22,772 nt of DNA from a virus: positions 1 to 22,772 of the IMG/VR virus record IMGVR_UViG_3300034418_004668. One strand, given 5' to 3'. Made by a program: the position numbers and the translations under genes. Each line of letters begins with the position of its first letter. Within the stretch, counting starts at the first letter, position 1. A model generated the notes under the pieces. It saw only the letters and a program-made list of their open reading frames with translations. It was not told where the DNA came from and searched no databases. Below, piece after piece: positions 2,667 to 21,623 of the stretch.

Positions 2667-2704
2667 AATGTCCTCGCAGTTACCGTCCTAGCTGCGGGGA
2701 CATT
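2667..2704. terminator. Convergent rho-independent terminator
   Basis: AATGTCCTCGCAG (2667-2679) pairs with CTGCGGGGACATT (2692-2704) to give a 13-bp stem with one G-T position and a 12-base loop. On the + strand it is followed by AAATTTTATTT, a loose U-rich tail. It sits exactly between the last + strand gene (ends 2658) and the last - strand gene (stop codon at 2703-2705, inside the stem). It should stop early transcripts and probably late ones too, although the U-tract is poor in the - direction. Confidence 0.85.
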
Positions 2705-2975
2705 AAATTTTATTTAAATGGTCTTCAATTCTTTTTACAGCGTCTTTGATGCTTGACCCGCCGTTAGTTTTAACCTCATGTTCGACACCCATTAGACGTG
2801 CCTCTATCTTGTCCAACCTGTCGGGAAGCTCAGAAATAATTTCGATGGTGTGTACAACCTTAGATATGAATGGCCAAATTTTGATAAGAGTCGCGACAAG
2901 AGCGGTAATTAAAAATACGGTCCAAATAATTGGGCCGTAATCCATAAGAAATTGGGACGCTTGTTCGGGGTTCAT
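2703..2975 (-). CDS. Small membrane protein with coiled-coil tail (holin candidate)
   Basis: The 90-residue protein has one clear membrane segment at about residues 14-36 (IIWTVFLITALVATLIKIWPF). A helical, charged region follows (PDRLDKIEARLMGVEHEVK) and then NGGSSIKDAVKRIEDHL. This layout, one N-terminal helix then a heptad region with an NGGSS-type motif, is seen in small actinophage membrane proteins that often lie near lysis genes (the DUF2746-like type). It is the last gene of the late - strand operon. The preceding gene ends only four bases upstream and carries a G-rich ribosome binding site. A holin or accessory lysis role is inferred from size, topology and position. No endolysin is in the window to confirm it, and a structural membrane-interacting role remains possible. 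Confidence 0.6.
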   Translation of the reverse strand: MNPEQASQFLMDYGPIIWTVFLITALVATLIKIWPFISKVVHTIEIISELPDRLDKIEARLMGVEHEVKTNGGSSIKDAVKRIEDHLNKI

Positions 2976-2979
2976 CTCA

Positions 2980-5900
2980 CTAAAATCCCCTACCTTCTTG
3001 ATTGGCCTGTTGTTGTTCTATCTCTGCAAATCTAATATAGCTTGGGCGGCTGTAATCAATCAACCCCACACCTGTCAGCCAGTTTACAGCAGAGATAAGT
3101 TGGTCACGAGACTCCTTGTTACCCAGCTCAAACTGGAGCTGCGGGTCCATAGCACCCTTAGTCAAAAGACTGTACAGCGAACCTGTGACGCTTTGACCCG
3201 ACACATTTGCAAGGTAGTTTACGCCAGGAAGCGACGAGTCAATGTAATCACTATAATCGCGGATGCGGGACTGTGTGCCCAGGCGTGTACCAGTAAGCAA
3301 TTCAATAGGAATCTTTAGTGCGGGGTTTGCGTTGTTCAAAACCGTGTCGATAGGGTTACCGCTAGCAAACTGATTAAACACATCGAATGTAGTAATACCC
3401 GGTCTAAATCCGTAGTATCGACCACCGGCCTCAAACTGGGGGCCTTCCATTTGCTCCGACAGGAAGCTTGGGAACAGCTGGTCGGCAGGGAACGGGTCGT
3501 ACAAAGAATCAGGATTAATGCCTGCCGCTACTGCAACGTTATATGAAGCTTTGTTGAGCGCTACGACACGCCCAGGATTCATAACAAGTGTTTCTAGCAC
3601 CGCCTGTATAGCCCCACGGTTCCAGTGATAGAACGGCATAACACGGCGCAAATACTTCTTTTCTTGCACAGACAACGTAGCCATGTCGGGGTGGTACTTC
3701 GACACGCGCTCCGCAATTAAATCAAACAACTCGTCTTTGCTAATTTTCTTAGGGTCAACTGTGGTACCAAAACCACGAGTCAGAATCTTGCCCTGCTGAG
3801 CCTTTTCCAGCATCTGCAAAGCGTGCTGCATACGAACAAACGTGTCACGCCCCTCAGCAATCTCGGTAATAATTTCTTCAGCCCTACCACCCCGAGAAGC
3901 AACACCAAGAGACGTGACAGCAAACGTCTTTTCCAACGCCCGGCTAGCAGTGTTAGTAATAACATCATCATCGTCCAACAGCGGGGCGTCCACATCCTGT
4001 TTTGCCACACCCCCCTGTCGAGTCAACAAACCTTCACGCTGCCTAGCAGGAATCAAAATACCCTTACCAAAGAAAAGTTCCCGCATAAGCTCATCGGCAG
4101 TCAAAGAACCAAAACGACCACTCGACATTACTGTCGTGTTCTTAGGAATATCTGTAATGCCCTGGTAGTTCATTGCTTTAACTAAGTCGATATCGCCGTA
4201 ACCGCCACGCATAGCCATTAATTGAATAGCCTTCTTGGAAGAAGACAAAGCCGCAAACCCGCCCTCAGCCAAGTAAGTCAAAGTAATATCACCAATCATG
4301 TTACGAATGTGGTGACCAGGGCGGGGCAGCGTAACCGCGTACTTCCATGTGTTAGTAATGGGGTCTAACGTAGTCCTCACAAACTTGCCAAAACCACCCT
4401 CAAACTGCTTACTCGTCTTAGCAAAATTATCGATAGCTTGGAACATTTCGGCAGCATCAGGGTCCATGTACAAAGGCTTGTCGCCCAAGTAACGCCCGTA
4501 ACGGCTGTCGTCGCCCGCAACAATCTTTACAAAACCCTTCTTAGGGCTACGGCTAGCCAGGCCCAGCTCCAACGCTTTGCGCTGGAACTGAGTAACAAAC
4601 GCAACCTCAGACGACAGCTGTACCATTGCACGGTTAGTGCGGTACATGAAATCCAACACATCATCTACAGGCCACGTACGCCACTGATTCAACAACTCAG
4701 CAGTAATCTCCTCCTGTGTCGGAACCCTACCCGCACGGGCAGCGTTTTCAGTAGCCGTCTTTAAAGCCAAATCCTCATCAAAGAAAACACCGCGAGGAGG
4801 CGTCCTAGCAGCACCATCCGTGCGACCCAACACAGCCGCAAACTCCATTACCTCATTAATAGCTTCGCGCCCCGCACCTGTTCTAAAAAACGAGTTACCC
4901 AACAGCACGTTTTGAATGTCGTCAGTCTGGTCAAAGAACCGGGCCATCATAGGCCGAAGGTCGTCTTCAGCTTTACGCAAAGTAGTTCCAGCAGTCGAAC
5001 GAACACCCCGTTGAATGTTCTCAAATGCTTGCTGCAAAACAGTGCGCTTACCGCCTTCAACAGCAGGCTGTGCGTAAGCGTCATTCTTAGACAAAGCTTG
5101 TAGATTCTTTAAGAATGGTTTGTTAAACATGGCCATCATGTTGCCCTGAGCAAAGAACAACCTAGAGCCCCACAGCATTTCTTGTACATTCATACCGGCT
5201 TTGGCGTCAAAGAACCGCTGTAGAGGAGCAAGAATCTTTAAAGCACCCGCAACAACACTTGCCCTACCCTGTGTAGCCGCAGCATCGTGACGCCTAGCAG
5301 CGCTCAAACTAAATTCGTCAGCAATATCTGCAGCTTCGTCAGCAGACACTCGCATCCGCTCAATAATTCGAGCGGCCTCATCCATAATACGCAAAGCACC
5401 CTGCTCAGCGTTCTCCATCAAAGCTTCTTGGGCTTTCTCTACCTTGGCCTTGTTGCCCTTAGCCACACCGTCAGCTATTTCTTCAGTCAACTGGGCGGCC
5501 TTACTAACCTCAGGGCCAATACCCGCAGTGACAACGCCCTGAGCAATAGTTTGACCTAGCTCTGTCGTAGGAACAACAGTAGCCATGTCTTCGACAATTG
5601 CAGCAGGCTTAGCTGCTACACGGATTTGCTCAGCAGTTTTCTCAGCGTTACTAAACAAATCAGTAATAAACTCTGCTGCTTCAGCAGAAAGTTGCTTACC
5701 TTCCACAAGGCCACGGCTTTTGTAAGTTGTTGTGTTAGCAGTCACCACACCTTGTAATGTTTCGCGGGCCGCAACGATACCTTCCGCAATGTTGTCTAGC
5801 ATTTTAGTTGCGGAAAGTTTTTTATTGCCTACTTTAATGCTGCGGCCCGCGGCTGCGGCATCTGCCAAACCATTCACCATATCCACGCCAGCAGGAGATT

Positions 5901-8349
5901 TTTTAGAGGTCAAGATAGCTAAGACTTCTGCTTTATTTCCAGTTTCAATAGCCCGTGCAATTGCGTAAGCAAATACCTGTGGAGGCAACGAACCATCAAA
6001 AAGCTTAGAATTTTTTTGGCCAATAGGAGACCTGGCGTTAAACCAGCTAGCAGCCAACCAGCTAGAACCAGAGCCTGTCGGCGCATCCATGACATCCGAC
6101 ACAGTGCGCCATGCTTGAGACCAAGAAATCTGGTGAGTAACACCATCCAACCTAAACACAGGTGCCAAACCCTGTTGTTTAAGCAAATCATCCGCTAACT
6201 CAAAAGCAACCAAAGCATCACGCTCTTTTTCACGGATAAGTTTAGCGCCCTGGAACGGCCCCCCTTGTCGAGTACCCAAGAAAATAGATGCCCCAGATTC
6301 GGTTTGGTAAAACTTGTTTAAACTAATCATCAAATCACGAATCAACGCTGCTTGAGAATCTGCGTTTAAATCTTTAGGTCTGACCGCACGACCTTTACCA
6401 AACTCCAGCTCCGTCTTTAACGTACCTTTGCGGTCATAGGGGTACACACCCTTTTGATATTTGCCGTCTAACTGGTTACGAATCCAATCAGGCAAAACTT
6501 CCGCAACAGCTTCTTTAATTGCAGCAGTTCTAGCAGCAATGTTTTGCACCACCCCACCAGAATCTGCGGCTGTCTCACGCAAACGAGTAGTAACAAAATC
6601 ATCTACGTCAGCTTTGCGGCTATTAGTTTCTACGCGGGCTGCCACATTTTCAGGCGTAACATTAGGAATATCATCAATACTTCGAGACAGCTGAGCCTCA
6701 GCAATAGCCCTCAAGTTTGCATCGTCTTCAAACAAACGCAAGAAACGACCCGTCAAAGTCTGGGCACCCGCACCTGCCAAAGCATCAATAGCACCAGTCT
6801 CTTTAAGCACTGCATCAATGTCGTCCAAGAACTTAGACATAACTTTGGGATTAAACGCCTGCAAATTAGCAAACAACTCTTCGCCCAACAGCTCAGCACC
6901 ACGAGCCCGCTCAGCATCATCAAGATTCTTCAGGTTGCGAACAACCGTAGCAGCGACACTAGCCTCCGCAGCCTCCTGTACACGAGCAGCCGGTGTCGTA
7001 GCATTACCCAAAAGGTCAACACCCTTACCGCTTTGCACACCCGCCGCGTAACGCTTATACGCAGGCTTCAAAACAAGCTTATTAATTGCTTCTCTAATTT
7101 CAGGCAACTTAGTGTCGCGTGCCAAACGCAAAACGTTACCAACTGACGGTGACGCTCCCAAAGGCTCAAACAAAATACTTTCCCGAGGAACAGACAATTT
7201 AACACCGGCAATAGCCTTATCAGCACCTACAGACTCAGACCACTTAGCAAACGCAATAGGCTTACCCGGCTTAGCCTTAGGCGCAGGAACAGCTTTCTTT
7301 AATCCCTCAAAGAACGAATCCAACTCACTACGCAAATTAACTTTCTTACCGCCGACAGTAGCGGTACGGGCATTGACAACCTCACGCAAAGATTTCAGTA
7401 CCGACTCGCTAGCCGTGGCCCCGCCCTTGGCCGCAGTTTCTACAAGGTCGTCTGCAACTTTCTGCGACGCTTGGGCTGCGGGAAATGGGGTAGCTTCCGC
7501 ATACTTAGGAATAATCTTGTAGCCGTTACTGCCGCGAGCAAGTTTAGAAGTCTCGCCCAAATTAACAAACGGTCTTGTAGTCCGAGACCGAATCTTGCCC
7601 AAAGCTTCCTCAGCAGCTTGCCTAGTAGGAAAGTTCTGCACACGAGTTTTACCGCTAACTGTCGTAGTCAAATCAAACGTAGGCTTCTCGCCAAAAGCTT
7701 TCAGGCTAGGACTAAACTGCTCAACAGGCACAACATCAGCAACTCCTGGCAACCCCACCTTTTCACCCGTAGCAATTCCCCTAGTAACCGCCCCCGCCTC
7801 TTTACCAACTTTGGCAGCGCCCTTAGCAGCCCAACCACCAGGCACCAACCACAACGGGTCCAATAGCACGTCACCCACAAAACCAAGAGCGCCTTTAACA
7901 GACGGGTCAACGTTGTTAGCAACATCTACGTAATTAGGGTCATTACGATTGTCGACATCCGACTGGCGCTCAATAATTTCTGACCAATATGGTTTATTCG
8001 CCGGGTCGTCCGAAAAGAAGCCAGTAAATGGTGAAGCTATTAAACTTCCGACAGCGGACAGCGCTTCTTTAGTTGCGCCCGCCTCATCGCCAGACACCCG
8101 CAACTCTCTAACTTTGTCAAAACGTTCGGGCAGCTCTACAGTCTTCATTGCCGGATTGCTAATAACACGCATAGGGCGTGACAGAATATCGACAGTGCGG
8201 CCCAAGAAACCTAATTCTTGTTTAGGAGCTGGGAGGTCGGGAAACTCTACCGGCTCGCCGGTGGGCTTTGCCCGCCCGCCAGTCAGTTGAGAATAGTAAA
8301 GATTTACGTATTCGCTGAACCTGTCGGAGCTAGGAGGCTGTTCAGCCAT
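2980..8349 (-). CDS. Giant putative internal virion / DNA ejection protein (1789 residues)
   Basis: This is the largest gene here. The N-terminus has GFLGRTVDILSRPMRV and, further on, VGDVLLDPLWLVPGG; similar Asp-Val-Leu-Ser and LLDPL segments occur near the start of very large phage structural proteins. The middle is Ala-rich and helical (about residues 950-1060). Near residue 1345 lies PRPGHHIRNMIGDI and near 1570 VMPFYHWNRGAIQAV, both typical of that family. No peptidase, lysozyme or tape-measure repeats are evident, and there is no clear signal peptide. Size and position, after small virion proteins and with nozzle and adaptor upstream, fit the role of T7 gp16-like proteins that are packed in the head and enter the host with the DNA. 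That role is inferred. The start is well supported: AAGGAG lies five bases before the ATG, and the upstream stop codon lies just before it. Confidence 0.75.
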   Translation of the reverse strand: MAEQPPSSDRFSEYVNLYYSQLTGGRAKPTGEPVEFPDLPAPKQELGFLGRTVDILSRPMRVISNPAMKTVELPERFDKVRELRVSGDEAGATKEALSAVGSLIASPFTGFFSDDPANKPYWSEIIERQSDVDNRNDPNYVDVANNVDPSVKGALGFVGDVLLDPLWLVPGGWAAKGAAKVGKEAGAVTRGIATGEKVGLPGVADVVPVEQFSPSLKAFGEKPTFDLTTTVSGKTRVQNFPTRQAAEEALGKIRSRTTRPFVNLGETSKLARGSNGYKIIPKYAEATPFPAAQASQKVADDLVETAAKGGATASESVLKSLREVVNARTATVGGKKVNLRSELDSFFEGLKKAVPAPKAKPGKPIAFAKWSESVGADKAIAGVKLSVPRESILFEPLGASPSVGNVLRLARDTKLPEIREAINKLVLKPAYKRYAAGVQSGKGVDLLGNATTPAARVQEAAEASVAATVVRNLKNLDDAERARGAELLGEELFANLQAFNPKVMSKFLDDIDAVLKETGAIDALAGAGAQTLTGRFLRLFEDDANLRAIAEAQLSRSIDDIPNVTPENVAARVETNSRKADVDDFVTTRLRETAADSGGVVQNIAARTAAIKEAVAEVLPDWIRNQLDGKYQKGVYPYDRKGTLKTELEFGKGRAVRPKDLNADSQAALIRDLMISLNKFYQTESGASIFLGTRQGGPFQGAKLIREKERDALVAFELADDLLKQQGLAPVFRLDGVTHQISWSQAWRTVSDVMDAPTGSGSSWLAASWFNARSPIGQKNSKLFDGSLPPQVFAYAIARAIETGNKAEVLAILTSKKSPAGVDMVNGLADAAAAGRSIKVGNKKLSATKMLDNIAEGIVAARETLQGVVTANTTTYKSRGLVEGKQLSAEAAEFITDLFSNAEKTAEQIRVAAKPAAIVEDMATVVPTTELGQTIAQGVVTAGIGPEVSKAAQLTEEIADGVAKGNKAKVEKAQEALMENAEQGALRIMDEAARIIERMRVSADEAADIADEFSLSAARRHDAAATQGRASVVAGALKILAPLQRFFDAKAGMNVQEMLWGSRLFFAQGNMMAMFNKPFLKNLQALSKNDAYAQPAVEGGKRTVLQQAFENIQRGVRSTAGTTLRKAEDDLRPMMARFFDQTDDIQNVLLGNSFFRTGAGREAINEVMEFAAVLGRTDGAARTPPRGVFFDEDLALKTATENAARAGRVPTQEEITAELLNQWRTWPVDDVLDFMYRTNRAMVQLSSEVAFVTQFQRKALELGLASRSPKKGFVKIVAGDDSRYGRYLGDKPLYMDPDAAEMFQAIDNFAKTSKQFEGGFGKFVRTTLDPITNTWKYAVTLPRPGHHIRNMIGDITLTYLAEGGFAALSSSKKAIQLMAMRGGYGDIDLVKAMNYQGITDIPKNTTVMSSGRFGSLTADELMRELFFGKGILIPARQREGLLTRQGGVAKQDVDAPLLDDDDVITNTASRALEKTFAVTSLGVASRGGRAEEIITEIAEGRDTFVRMQHALQMLEKAQQGKILTRGFGTTVDPKKISKDELFDLIAERVSKYHPDMATLSVQEKKYLRRVMPFYHWNRGAIQAVLETLVMNPGRVVALNKASYNVAVAAGINPDSLYDPFPADQLFPSFLSEQMEGPQFEAGGRYYGFRPGITTFDVFNQFASGNPIDTVLNNANPALKIPIELLTGTRLGTQSRIRDYSDYIDSSLPGVNYLANVSGQSVTGSLYSLLTKGAMDPQLQFELGNKESRDQLISAVNWLTGVGLIDYSRPSYIRFAEIEQQQANQEGRGF

Positions 8350-17293: not shown

Positions 17294-19423
17294 TTATACT
17301 CCTTGTTCAGGGGCCATGTCGGGTACAGCCCCATTAGGAGCCATCATAGCACCTGGGCCCATTTGAGGACCACCCTGACCGCCTTCAGCAGGCGGCTGTC
17401 CGGCCATCATCTGGGCCATTGCACGCTGCTGCAGAATCTGCTCGTGCTGGGCCACGTGGTCGGCAAACTGAGCTTTCAGCTCGTCAGGCAAAATTTCGTA
17501 TTCTTGCGACATACGGAATTTGTTGTGCGTCTCAATGTGGACCTCGTGAACATCAAAGTCATCGACAGGAATCACAGCAGGCGCTGGCATGTTCTCAATT
17601 TCAGCCATAATGTTGGGGTCCTGCATGGCCTCGGGAGGCAAGCTAGCCATAATCTCTTGCATGGCCTCCATGCGCTTAGCCTCGATTTCCTCCAACGACA
17701 TCATCTTCATCTTGATGTTCTCACGCTGGGCTTTACGCTCTGCCACATTCATGGTGTCCATAATCTTCTGCACACCACCAACCTCAAGCATTCTCGCAGC
17801 TGTCGGCTGGTCGATAATACCGACAGCAAACATGTCCATTACACGGGCTTCCTGAGCAGCCTTAGACTTAGCAAAGCTGGAACCGGGCTCAATACGAATG
17901 TCAGTACCAGAAGCAATGTCAGCCCCCCGCAACTGCATTGTGTCGAACGCACCATCCGCACCGATTGTCCGAATCTTACGGGGCAAGTCAACATACTGCA
18001 CAAACAACTCAATGGTCTGTGTAGCAATCTTCTCAATACCCGCCTCGATGCTTTGGAACTGGGGCGTCAGATACTGGTTAGATGCTTCCTGCAAGTACGA
18101 GATAGCCGTACCAGAAGTAACACCAGGAGGTGTGTCGCCACGCGACACTTCCCGCTCACCAGAAATATCAATCCAGTCATTCAACACACGCTCCTGCTGG
18201 TCCAGGTAGTACTGGGGCAGAGGCGACAGAGGCAAAGGCTGGGGTGGTGCCATACCAGGCTTGTACTGGATAACCAGGCCAGGCTCGTTAGTCAGCTTAG
18301 ATGGAACAATAGAACCCATCGGCGCAATCAGCTGTGGCTTGGCCATGCGGCGTCCGGCCTCAGAAATCTCTGACCGCAAACCGTTGTACTCTTTCTGCAG
18401 CTGCGACAGGTCCACAATGGGGCTATCAGCGTAGAACGTTGCGGTGGGGATGTGCTCAAACTTGGTGAATGGGTACATGCCGTGGCCGTAGGGGAAGCCG
18501 TCACGGTGAACGCTGATGAGAACGTCGTCAACGCTGATAATGACACCGCCCTGAGGCAGAAGCTTAGTAGCGCCAGGCTTTACCCAAGTTTCGTAAACAA
18601 TGACACTATCCGGTGCCTTACTGTTACCAAGGTTGAGATAAGCCTCATCAAGGATTTGGTTAGCAGCAGAAGTACTAGGAGCCAACTTAATATCGCCAAG
18701 TTCTTTAGCGAAGTAATGTTGCGCCCAAGCCACTGGTTTAGTGTATGCGTTAATGACAAAAGGCTGGTCTTCAATGTCTTGCTCCCGTACATCAGGCACG
18801 AACAGGTGAAAAGGGGTTACGTGCCCATACTTGATGTCTCCGTACTCGCCGGAAACTTTATCGACACAGTACGGGTCCCAGTGTGTCTTAAGGAACCCGT
18901 TACCTGTAACAATGGTCCACCAGATGGCACGCGACATGTGCTGTCGCAGCTTCTTAGAGTCACTGATGGAGGTCCAAGCCTGCTCAGCTGCAAAAGCTGC
19001 ACGCTGGTCCTGGTCCTCGCTGGACGCAGGAATGGCTTGAGCGGTGGGAAATGACGAGAGCATCTTCGACATTTCCCACCGAACATAGGAGCGGATACGG
19101 TTGATGGTTTTCCGCTGGTGGTAGTACGGCTTACGCGGGGTAAACAGTTTGTCTCGGTAGTCTTCAGGGAAATTACCGCGAGTCTGTTCTACCCAGTGGT
19201 GCCCATAAAACATTGACATGTTGTGAAACCACTGCAGCTGCTTTTGGCTACGAGCAGTTTTAGCCTTAGTCCATTCGGACTGTACCCAAGCAACTAGCTT
19301 TGCAGCCTCTTCGCTTTCACGGTACTTCTCAATGTTTAAACCGTCCTCAGGTAATTTAATTACCGTAGAACTCTGGGTCAACTCCAGTGAGTTCAGCGAA
19401 TAGTTGTCTGGCGTCTTGGGCAT
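17294..19423 (-). CDS. Portal protein (P22/podovirus type)
   Basis: The 709-residue protein is close to P22 portal size (725). It begins with a helical clip/wing region (KLVAWVQSEWTKAKTARSQKQLQWFHNMSMFYG), typical of phage portals. It continues with PRKPYYHQRKTINRIRSYVRWEMSK, the usual lead-in to the portal core, and WTIVTGNGFLKTHWDP. A stem/crown-type region has LQKEYNGLRSEISEAGRRMAK and RGDTPPGVTSGTAISYLQE. The last 70 residues are Met/Pro/Gln/Gly-rich and probably disordered. Twelve copies should form the DNA channel at one capsid vertex and dock terminase and adaptor. The start is supported by GGGAGA eight bases upstream. The first 68 bases of the gene overlap the end of the upstream 137-residue frame. 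Confidence 0.92.
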   Translation of the reverse strand: MPKTPDNYSLNSLELTQSSTVIKLPEDGLNIEKYRESEEAAKLVAWVQSEWTKAKTARSQKQLQWFHNMSMFYGHHWVEQTRGNFPEDYRDKLFTPRKPYYHQRKTINRIRSYVRWEMSKMLSSFPTAQAIPASSEDQDQRAAFAAEQAWTSISDSKKLRQHMSRAIWWTIVTGNGFLKTHWDPYCVDKVSGEYGDIKYGHVTPFHLFVPDVREQDIEDQPFVINAYTKPVAWAQHYFAKELGDIKLAPSTSAANQILDEAYLNLGNSKAPDSVIVYETWVKPGATKLLPQGGVIISVDDVLISVHRDGFPYGHGMYPFTKFEHIPTATFYADSPIVDLSQLQKEYNGLRSEISEAGRRMAKPQLIAPMGSIVPSKLTNEPGLVIQYKPGMAPPQPLPLSPLPQYYLDQQERVLNDWIDISGEREVSRGDTPPGVTSGTAISYLQEASNQYLTPQFQSIEAGIEKIATQTIELFVQYVDLPRKIRTIGADGAFDTMQLRGADIASGTDIRIEPGSSFAKSKAAQEARVMDMFAVGIIDQPTAARMLEVGGVQKIMDTMNVAERKAQRENIKMKMMSLEEIEAKRMEAMQEIMASLPPEAMQDPNIMAEIENMPAPAVIPVDDFDVHEVHIETHNKFRMSQEYEILPDELKAQFADHVAQHEQILQQRAMAQMMAGQPPAEGGQGGPQMGPGAMMAPNGAVPDMAPEQGV

Positions 19424-19769
19424 CTAAGTCGTCTCCCGCTGCAAGGTTAGGGTTCCTGGCTGCAATTCTTTCCGATTCAGCCTCGTCGGATGGGTCGTAG
19501 TCCTGGTAACCACTATAATCTAAAGTTTGATTCATCGCTTGAATTTGTTGAAAAGCGAGAGGGTCGCTTGAAGCGACTAGTGCTTGCGCTTTTGAGTTCA
19601 GCTCCGTCAGTGTCTTTATCGACTTCTGGTGCTCCTGTTGCTGCGTCTTCAAGATTTCCGACTGCTGCTCCAGCAGCTGTGTGATTGCTTTCTGGCTCCA
19701 CAGGTACTGCAGCACCAACAGGGACAGTAGAATCAGTGAGAACACGCTCAACAAAATTATTGATAACAT
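19356..19769 (-). CDS. Membrane-anchored coiled-coil protein, embedded in two neighbouring genes
   Basis: The 137-residue frame has a strong N-terminal membrane segment (residues 2-24, LSIILLSVFSLILLSLLVLQYLW). A Gln/Glu/Lys coiled-coil region follows (QLLEQQSEILKTQQQEHQK), then an acidic C-terminus ending ELTGVDPEFYGN. It overlaps the upstream 175-residue frame by 257 bases in another frame and the portal gene by 68 bases. An AAGGAG lies ten bases before its ATG, inside the upstream gene. The topology resembles spanin-type proteins, but no second spanin part is identified and the host wall type is unknown. A shorter product starting at Met79 (19535), giving 59 residues and only a 23-base overlap, is the conservative alternative. 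It has no visible ribosome binding site. Confidence 0.6.
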   Translation of the reverse strand: MLSIILLSVFSLILLSLLVLQYLWSQKAITQLLEQQSEILKTQQQEHQKSIKTLTELNSKAQALVASSDPLAFQQIQAMNQTLDYSGYQDYDPSDEAESERIAARNPNLAAGDDLDAQDARQLFAELTGVDPEFYGN

Positions 19770-20040
19770 CGCTTTTTAGCTCCTTCATTGCGTCGTTGTA
19801 GCCTTCTTCGTACCACTGTTTTTTCTTAAGTACAGCAGTCTGAGGCTCTCCTTCGTCAAACAGCCCAGCCAACTGAGCCATCTCTCGTAGTGCTTCTACC
19901 GACAGGTAGATTCGGCCTCGGTCAATGACGTTCTTGCTCAGGTCTACACCTGTGTCAATGAATGGGCCTTTGCTTGTCCTAGTAATCCAGCAAACACCGG
20001 GGGCGAGTGCTGGAGCGTCCGTTAGGAAGAATCTGCTCAT
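19513..20040 (-). CDS. Unrecognised late protein (175 residues), 3' half overlapping the next gene
   Basis: This gene starts at a TAATG overlap with the terminase stop. Residues 1-100 look globular (GVCWITRTSKGPFIDTGVDL, RGRIYLSVEALREMAQLAGL, KKQWYEEGYNDAMKELK). Residues about 100-175 are Ala/Ser/Thr/Asp-rich and likely disordered, and this is the part that overlaps the 137-residue frame. No family is recognised. Position between terminase and portal suggests a packaging or head-assembly accessory. The conserved-looking N-terminal half makes the gene itself convincing. The exact importance of the C-terminal half is uncertain because the same DNA also codes for the membrane protein. Confidence 0.68.
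   Translation of the reverse strand: MSRFFLTDAPALAPGVCWITRTSKGPFIDTGVDLSKNVIDRGRIYLSVEALREMAQLAGLFDEGEPQTAVLKKKQWYEEGYNDAMKELKSDVINNFVERVLTDSTVPVGAAVPVEPESNHTAAGAAVGNLEDAATGAPEVDKDTDGAELKSASTSRFKRPSRFSTNSSDESNFRL
19780..19785 (-). promoter_or_regulatory. Internal ribosome binding site that supports the embedded start at 19769
   Basis: AAGGAG on the - strand, ten bases before the ATG, inside codons for Lys-Glu of the 175-residue protein. It decides in favour of the longer (137-residue) form of the embedded gene over the Met79 start. Confidence 0.5.
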
Positions 20041-21623
20041 TAGTAGTAATCTCCGTATTCTGCGATAACGGTAGGTCCGTCATCTCGTGCTCTATCTTCT
20101 GCGAACTCGACGTTGGGGTCTTCTCGCATTTTCAAAAGCAGCTCCTCGTATCTTAGCGTAGTGGGAGCGTCTTGGGTACCCGCCGAATCATCGACAGGTT
20201 TTAAATCAGGCCGTGTCGTAGCAAAGTAGCGGGCAGAGTCGAAAGCGTGGTCGTCCTTTTTGTGTACAACTTCCTGCTTATTCATCTCGTATGCCATTTT
20301 GTCTGAGCTGTACGATGACCACCGCAGCTTTTTTAGCTCACGAATAAAGTTGGCACAGTTACGAGAAATAACCCATTTGGGCCGGTCTGGGCCCCAACGA
20401 GTGTCGTTACGGCGTCTAAAATATGCTTGCATCTTTTCGATACCAACCATCACATCGTGGGGTATGCCCTCAACGTTCACGTAAACCCCGTGGAGCGCAT
20501 ATTCTTGAATAATCGATGTCCCAGTCACCCCATTGCGTTGTCGCATCGCAGGGTCGCCCATACGCTCTACAGAGTCAGGTTTACGGCCCCAGCTAAGCTC
20601 TCGTTGTTTCACCAGCTGTGCGTGCTCCGACACAATCATGTTTGACTGGTAATGCTCCGCAAACGTCACAATATCCCCTGTCGGAGACACTGCGTGCCAC
20701 AACCAAGCCGTCGGGTTATTCAAACCGTGGTCGACAGAGGCGTACACAGCCCAGTTCTTAGGCACATCGCCAGGACCAAAGTCCACTAAATAACGGTCAA
20801 TGTTTTGGCCAAAATCAGGAAACACCAAACCACTACGAGCAACAAAGTCACCCTTCTCACGAATATCCCGCTCTTCCTTGTTCATCCCCATCATGTAAAA
20901 GTTCATGTCGTCATTGTCAGCCTCAATGTACGGGTTCTGCTCAGCCGACAAAGTAAACGTGTCAATTTCCTCTGCTTTGCCCTCTTTTGCAGGCTCCCAC
21001 AGCAAATCAAACGTCCAACCCATACCCTTAGTTGGTGTGGCCGCAATAACCCAAAACCCGTTGTAGTCAATTAGACGCATCATGGACTCGTTAAAAATGT
21101 TCTGAGGGGGCTCCTCGTCAAAGAAGATTCCGTGACGAGGAACACCACCCAGCTTCATCATGTCCATACCCCAGGTAACAAAATCAATTGTTGACCCGTT
21201 GTCGAACGTCAGAATGTAGTTGGTTGCATCCCAACTCTTAGACCAATCACCATCCTTAAGGTAGGAACGTGGTATCCACCTTTTCATTTTAGGCAAAATA
21301 ATCTGTTCGATACCTTTGGCAACGTCTACAACGACAAACCTAAGCTGTACAGGTCCAGACCCCCATGAAGGTGGGCGCTTAAGAAATGGGTGAGTATTTG
21401 TAGCCCACCAGATAGACTCAACGACTTCAGCGTCGGTTTTTCCTCCACGGTTACCTCCAGAAATAAACCGCCCACGTTTGTCAGATTTATGAAACCTGAG
21501 CTGCTCCGGGTAATCCCTTTCCCCATAATTAAGAATATTGGGTTTGTGAATTGACTGGTCAAGCTCAGCAACGGCAAGCTGTAAAAGCTCAGCCGGTGTC
21601 GGTTGTCTCTGCTTCGTAGGCAT
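20040..21623 (-). CDS. terL: Terminase large subunit
   Basis: The 527-residue protein is the packaging motor with nuclease. The ATPase domain shows Walker A GGNRGGKT at 56-63, Walker B IFFDEE at 166-171 with catalytic Glu170, and the coupling motif AATPTKG at 194-200. The nuclease domain shows an RNase H-fold arrangement of acidic residues: D298 in YASVDHG, D357 in RMGDPAMRQR, and D457/D458 in KKDDHAFDSARY. Size and order fit phage TerL proteins. It should cut the concatemeric DNA and pump it through the portal using ATP. Its start shares one base with the stop of the small 102-residue gene, which takes the position usually held by the small terminase subunit. The C-terminal 50 residues are acidic and probably flexible. 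Confidence 0.96.
   Translation of the reverse strand: MPTKQRQPTPAELLQLAVAELDQSIHKPNILNYGERDYPEQLRFHKSDKRGRFISGGNRGGKTDAEVVESIWWATNTHPFLKRPPSWGSGPVQLRFVVVDVAKGIEQIILPKMKRWIPRSYLKDGDWSKSWDATNYILTFDNGSTIDFVTWGMDMMKLGGVPRHGIFFDEEPPQNIFNESMMRLIDYNGFWVIAATPTKGMGWTFDLLWEPAKEGKAEEIDTFTLSAEQNPYIEADNDDMNFYMMGMNKEERDIREKGDFVARSGLVFPDFGQNIDRYLVDFGPGDVPKNWAVYASVDHGLNNPTAWLWHAVSPTGDIVTFAEHYQSNMIVSEHAQLVKQRELSWGRKPDSVERMGDPAMRQRNGVTGTSIIQEYALHGVYVNVEGIPHDVMVGIEKMQAYFRRRNDTRWGPDRPKWVISRNCANFIRELKKLRWSSYSSDKMAYEMNKQEVVHKKDDHAFDSARYFATTRPDLKPVDDSAGTQDAPTTLRYEELLLKMREDPNVEFAEDRARDDGPTVIAEYGDYY

Follow-up and report, generated by a model that had tools for sequence, protein, structure and literature searches.

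Gene arrangement at the locus

The window, i.e. the whole stretch of DNA analysed (22,772 nucleotides, positions 1 to 22,772 of IMG/VR virus record IMGVR_UViG_3300034418_004668), carries on its minus strand the genes of the terminase large subunit (TerL), of two small proteins called here outer and inner, and of the portal, in this order. The TerL and portal assignments are firm. The features of the locus are listed below in window coordinates.

20040-21623, minus strand: TerL gene (phrog_2)
19513-20040, minus strand: outer gene, ATG start, 175 amino acids
19356-19769, minus strand: inner gene, ATG start, 137 amino acids
19513-19769, minus strand: two-frame overlap of outer and inner genes, 257 nt (inner frame = outer frame +1)
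17294-19423, minus strand: portal gene (P22_portal, phrog_156)
19356-19423, minus strand: inner/portal overlap, 68 nt at the start of the portal gene
19780-19785, minus strand: AAGGAG, Shine-Dalgarno (SD) sequence of the inner gene, 10 nt from the inner ATG
19776-19778, minus strand: TAA in the inner frame, two codons upstream of the inner ATG
19710-19769, minus strand: predicted transmembrane (TM) helix of inner, residues 1-20
19533-19565, minus strand: inner motif DPLAFQQIQAM
19482-19496, minus strand: inner motif DPSDE
19516-19572, minus strand: constrained C-terminal end of the outer protein, FKRPSRFSTNSSDESNFRL

The first-pass annotation had reported 257 bases common to two minus-strand frames, an inner gene entering the portal gene by 68 bases, and AAGGAG ten bases ahead of the inner ATG. 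The coordinates of the shared segment proved exact, with both frames open across it; the portal overlap was borne out by the coordinates, and the SD sequence was seen at 19780-19785.

Both reading frames are maintained

Sixty IMG/VR loci matched the inner protein and 39 the outer protein. All 59 first-round loci that were readable through both frames had both of them open, and most of the 59 shared a 685-nt unit without indels and an identical 257-nt overlap. Twenty-four representatives, less than 97% identical to each other (mean nucleotide identity 75%), were compared. The third frame contained 7-15 stop codons in every one of them, and the outer frame, when followed past its own stop, met 1-6 stops within the next 29 codons. 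The position of the outer stop was identical in 24/24.

In a codon permutation, synonymous codons were shuffled with the inner protein kept, and the outer tail was scored for openness. The tail was open with P values of 0.015-0.69 per sequence (24 representatives). The product over 18 divergent lineages was 2.5e-19, or 2e-27 with uniform codons, figures that are indicative rather than strict p-values owing to shared ancestry. Chance overlap was thereby ruled out. Stops in one frame across the overlap, which had been named as the observation that would speak against two coding frames, were looked for in the relatives and found in neither frame. Both frames are conserved and stop-free far beyond chance, as in an overlapping gene pair, in agreement with the initial claim that both are coding. 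The outer/inner pair is thus almost certainly, as judged from sequence comparison, a case of dual coding, and the relatives demonstrate its conservation.

Selection within the overlap

Selection was measured by counting site classes in the style of OLGenie. Within the overlap the inner frame had a dN/dS of 0.38 (0.30-0.48) when controlled for the outer frame, and purifying selection acts on the inner protein throughout this segment. The outer frame gave an NN/NS of 1.19 over the whole overlap and 1.33 without the last 13 codons, indicating a linker without constraint at the amino-acid level, whose exact sequence may therefore not matter. The C-terminal end of the outer protein (15-17 residues), in contrast, was constrained, with an SN/SS of 0.22 (0.07-0.43) based on few SS sites. 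Suppression of synonymous sites, proposed earlier as a check, was detected at this end: the third-position diversity of the inner gene was 0.177 in codons 72-86 vs 0.437 in codons 87-115 (MWU p=0.0004). The inner motif DPLAFQQIQAM accounts for part of the constancy of the outer end. Positions that are free in this respect are also largely fixed, e.g. inner Ala78 is encoded by GCG in 22/24 representatives, which specifies outer Asp169. Selection was detectable in both frames, in the outer frame only at its C-terminal end.

Since the linker is unconstrained and the end constrained, the outer tail can be described as a linker that is kept free of stops and has a conserved end. One could also suppose that only the inner gene matters and that the outer tail is chance read-through held open by the codon bias of inner, as the linker evolves free of amino-acid constraint (NN/NS 1.19) and one large clade has short-tailed outer proteins. 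This is quite unlikely in view of the codon-permutation product (2.5e-19 over 18 lineages), the same stop position in 24/24 representatives and the suppressed synonymous change over the 15-17 C-terminal residues; moreover, the short outer forms still overlap the inner gene by 74-140 nt in the same frame. If one of the two frames is a more loosely constrained passenger, this role falls to the outer tail and not to the inner gene.

Translation start of the inner gene

The sequence [AG]AGGAG lies exactly 10 nt upstream of the inner ATG in 24/24 representatives. Elsewhere in the outer gene only 22% of the Lys/Glu codons end in G. The actual inner start of two loci (L030 and L031) is an in-frame ATG one codon earlier. 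Most close relatives have an in-frame stop two codons ahead of the inner ATG, and in divergent relatives, too, a start codon is found where the TM segment begins, in many cases accompanied by an SD core. The portal gene has an SD core of its own in 24/24 representatives. Inner homologues beginning only at the equivalent of Met79, which would have contradicted an upstream start, were not encountered; the homologues use the same upstream ATG.

Because SD sequence and ATG are fixed, an in-frame stop lies upstream and divergent relatives are alike, internal initiation is favoured, and the inner protein is very probably made in this way. Ribosomes would begin its synthesis within the outer gene, at an ATG served by a separate SD sequence, and a frameshift would be unnecessary. 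The +1 offset of two frames that are both open across the overlap could in principle allow a programmed frameshift yielding an outer-inner fusion. This is highly improbable, given the 10-nt spacing of SD sequence and ATG in 24/24, the in-frame stop that most close relatives have two codons upstream of the ATG, and the conservation of the inner TM segment and N-tail directly from the ATG.

Distribution and age of the nested pair

A wider search was made with inner sequences only, and about 75 distinct loci were examined, 64 automatically and 11 by hand. The nested pair was present in every one, in the same frame relation and with overlaps of 74-332 nt, and the order TerL - outer/inner - portal was kept down to about 30% identity. 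As only inner sequences served as queries, the presence of outer is an independent result. The most divergent loci (L237 and L238) contain TerL, a ribbon protein, a nested TM gene and the portal.

Named phages with the pair are Microbacterium phage Shocker, Cellulosimicrobium phage DS1 and eight Arthrobacter phage records of the Jasmine group (Jasmine and Adat, two records each, Casserole, Brad, GurgleFerb and Nellie). DS1 and the eight Arthrobacter records have no annotated inner gene. Shocker gp19 (L088, 7949-8200) is annotated from an internal TTG and so lacks the TM segment; read further upstream, its frame also encodes a TM segment and has an ATG at 7850 preceded by GGAGG, and the annotation is 33 codons short at the N-terminus. 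The pair is conserved in a group of podoviruses, short-tailed viruses that infect at least some actinobacteria; phages of the genera Arthrobacter, Microbacterium and Cellulosimicrobium are among them. In 84,980 bacterial and archaeal genomes that were scanned there was no relative and therefore no prophage or host link. The gene pair was not described in the literature searched, which took in few subscription papers.

The initial suggestion that a new membrane gene had been overprinted in the tail of an older one did not survive this comparison: both genes occur in every relative found, with strong selection on inner and weak selection on the outer tail. Young overprinting of the inner gene was ruled out by its presence in all relatives found, including the most divergent. 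Both genes are old, inner being the more constrained of the two. In a portal tree with midpoint root, long overlaps occurred on both sides and short overlaps in two places; under this arbitrary root the long overlap would be the simpler ancestral state.

Podoviridae ctEqG8 (L091, 7885-8175) contains a ribbon protein gene in which an ORF is nested, again in the +1 frame; the product of this ORF lacks a TM segment and the DPL motif. The ORF is either a remote variant or an unrelated overlap, and ctEqG8 was excluded from the locus counts. In the Microbacterium podoviruses ArMaWen (L322, 33137-33776) and Burro (L323, 38743-39370) TerL is followed by two small genes overlapping by 47 and 29 nt, respectively. 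These genes are dissimilar to the outer/inner pair, the gene order differs, and the portal is located elsewhere.

Properties of the two proteins

The AlphaFold2 (AF2) model of outer (mean pLDDT only 60) consists of a small N-terminal beta domain (pLDDT about 80), a helix (residues 67-104) and a disordered tail (106-175). It agrees with the globular N-terminus noted on first reading, and the predicted disorder from residue 106 also places the overlap in a disordered tail, as had been thought. Divergent outer proteins have an N-terminal CxxC...CxxC with both Cys pairs intact, for which reason outer is probably a zinc ribbon that has lost its ligands in the clade of the window. The ligands are present in the outer proteins of L154, L156, L161, L162 and DS1; in the window's clade, which has lost them, the GPFIDTG motif around their positions is retained. 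No match to outer was found among PDB sequences or by Foldseek search with its model. The outer protein of the Arthrobacter branch constitutes phrog_37518 (Jasmine gp13, unknown function); the nested inner gene matched no PHROG of its own. Outer would be a small ribbon-like protein of the cytoplasm; its disordered tail would be encoded by the same DNA as the membrane helix, coiled coil and DPLxxQxxQAM motif of inner.

Inner has an N-terminal TM helix, a long helix with coiled-coil periodicity, the motifs DPLxxQxxQAM and DPSDExE and an acidic C-terminus. Its AF2 model is a single long helix (residues 2-68, pLDDT mostly >90), and past the TM segment hydrophobicity has a period near 3.5-3.6, typical of coiled coils; the membrane helix and coiled coil proposed in the first-pass annotation are thus both predicted. 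Residues D69, P70, L71, Q74, Q77, P93 and E98 are invariant and D92, S94, D95 and E96 nearly invariant in 34 proteins. No curated family was found for inner in Pfam or NCBIfam. We infer that it forms an oligomer.

In 37 inner proteins the N-tails before the TM segment contained 0 K/R and 14 acidic residues, and the C flanks (15 residues past the TM segment) carried charges of +70/-49. This pattern suggests that inner is probably anchored N-out/C-in. The prediction rests on divergent relatives, because the TM flanks in the window's own clade are nearly neutral. With this orientation the helix, the motifs and the acidic tail would face the cytoplasm.

Possible functions of the inner protein

The first-pass annotation had pointed to a likeness to nested spanin genes. 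Rz is N-in/C-out, with an outer-membrane lipoprotein as partner in Gram-negative hosts (PMC6139136). Inner has the reverse topology, as far as can be predicted (the prediction is weak in the window's clade). Outer starts with MSRFFLTDAPALAPGVC and has no hydrophobic signal, reading its sequence revealed no signal peptide or lipobox, and its N-terminus is globular in the AF2 model. The named relatives infect Arthrobacter, Microbacterium and Cellulosimicrobium, which are Gram-positive. The likeness is not supported: predicted topology, the hosts known for named relatives and the missing lipoprotein partner led to the rejection of a spanin as the best reading.

The window inner protein had no significant match to a spanin family (phrog_89, E 0.008). 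Weak matches to PHROG 'Rz-like spanin' were obtained with 4/34 inner members (best E 0.0004), and the match to TIGR03495 LysB had an E value of 0.0055 and 17 bits vs a cut-off of 92.75. The Rz-like matches look like TM/coiled-coil bias. Together with the single TM segment and the coiled coil, such matches could suggest a lysis protein in a wider sense (holin, antiholin or i-spanin-like). This we consider unlikely: the predicted orientation is opposite to that of Rz (PMC6139136), the hosts of the named relatives are Gram-positive, outer lacks a signal peptide or lipobox, weak matches of this kind are typical of coiled-coil bias, and a second small membrane gene with TM segment and coil (2703-2975) ends the structural genes. 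An Amidase_2 search for a lysis cassette in ten related records was empty. The protein encoded at 2703-2975 (minus strand, 90 amino acids, one TM segment and a coiled coil) matches only phrog_9869 (unknown function, E 4e-7) and has a related gene in L164; we take it to resemble actinophage holin-like proteins.

Internal proteins of podoviruses enter the host membrane during DNA entry. Inner could similarly be an ejection protein or minor component of the virion that is packaged close to the portal and passes into the host membrane as DNA enters, and this is the main rival to a role in assembly. It would suit a small TM protein with a helical coil whose gene lies among head genes next to the portal gene, in a group whose named member Jasmine is a podovirus (PMC5513430). 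Inner does not match known ejection proteins, however, and its conserved cytoplasm-facing motifs suggest a role on the producing side, which leaves this alternative rather doubtful. A candidate for a large internal protein of the virion is the 1789-aa product of 2980-8349 (minus strand) in the structural module; it matches only phrog_36598 (unknown function), with the best similarity near the C-terminus.

In T4 the portal begins to assemble at the inner membrane, aided by the chaperone gp40 (PMC9958956). By analogy with T4, gene position (inner adjoins the portal gene, with a 68-nt overlap) and topology favour an assembly role, in which inner, synthesised shortly ahead of the portal protein, might form an oligomeric adaptor that is tethered to the membrane and serves the assembly of the portal or prohead. 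No match to an assembly factor was found for either protein by sequence (Pfam, NCBIfam, PDB), nor by Foldseek search with the outer model, and a role of inner in portal/prohead assembly is a guess that we regard as possible rather than probable. The statement as a whole, comprising the nested pair, internal start, N-out/C-in anchoring and a portal/prohead assembly adaptor, has in our estimate slightly less than an even chance. More speculatively, inner may represent an unrecognised family of membrane-tethered head-assembly factors, encoded by an ancient nested gene fixed in the TerL-portal module, that ties prohead assembly to the membrane in Gram-positive hosts.

As an example of dual coding in tailed phages the pair is clean and old, and gene callers have dropped or cut its nested member. 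It illustrates how the frame of a disordered tail can stay open for another frame with almost no selection at the amino-acid level. Its presence in the culturable phages Jasmine, Adat and Shocker makes it testable, and a role of inner in portal assembly, if real, would argue for prohead initiation at the membrane of Gram-positive hosts.

Comparison with known systems

Like lambda Rz/Rz1 and other embedded or overlapped two-component spanins, the pair consists of two out-of-frame genes on one strand, one product of which has an N-terminal TM segment and a coiled coil. However, the spanin TM protein is N-in/C-out whereas the predicted topology of inner is reversed, the spanin partner is an outer-membrane lipoprotein where the partner here would be a cytoplasmic ribbon-like protein, and spanins act in Gram-negative lysis while the present pair lies between TerL and portal. 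With overprinted viral gene pairs, reviewed in PMC8227390, it shares the same-strand out-of-frame overlap and the combination of a constrained and a loose, disordered product. It differs from these in that it is old and fixed across a whole divergent phage group, and in its location in a head-morphogenesis module with an internal SD start. The resemblance to T4 gp40 concerns the proposed role only, i.e. helping the portal initiator (gp20 in T4) to assemble at the membrane; the two would be analogous in role, with no claim of homology in sequence or fold.
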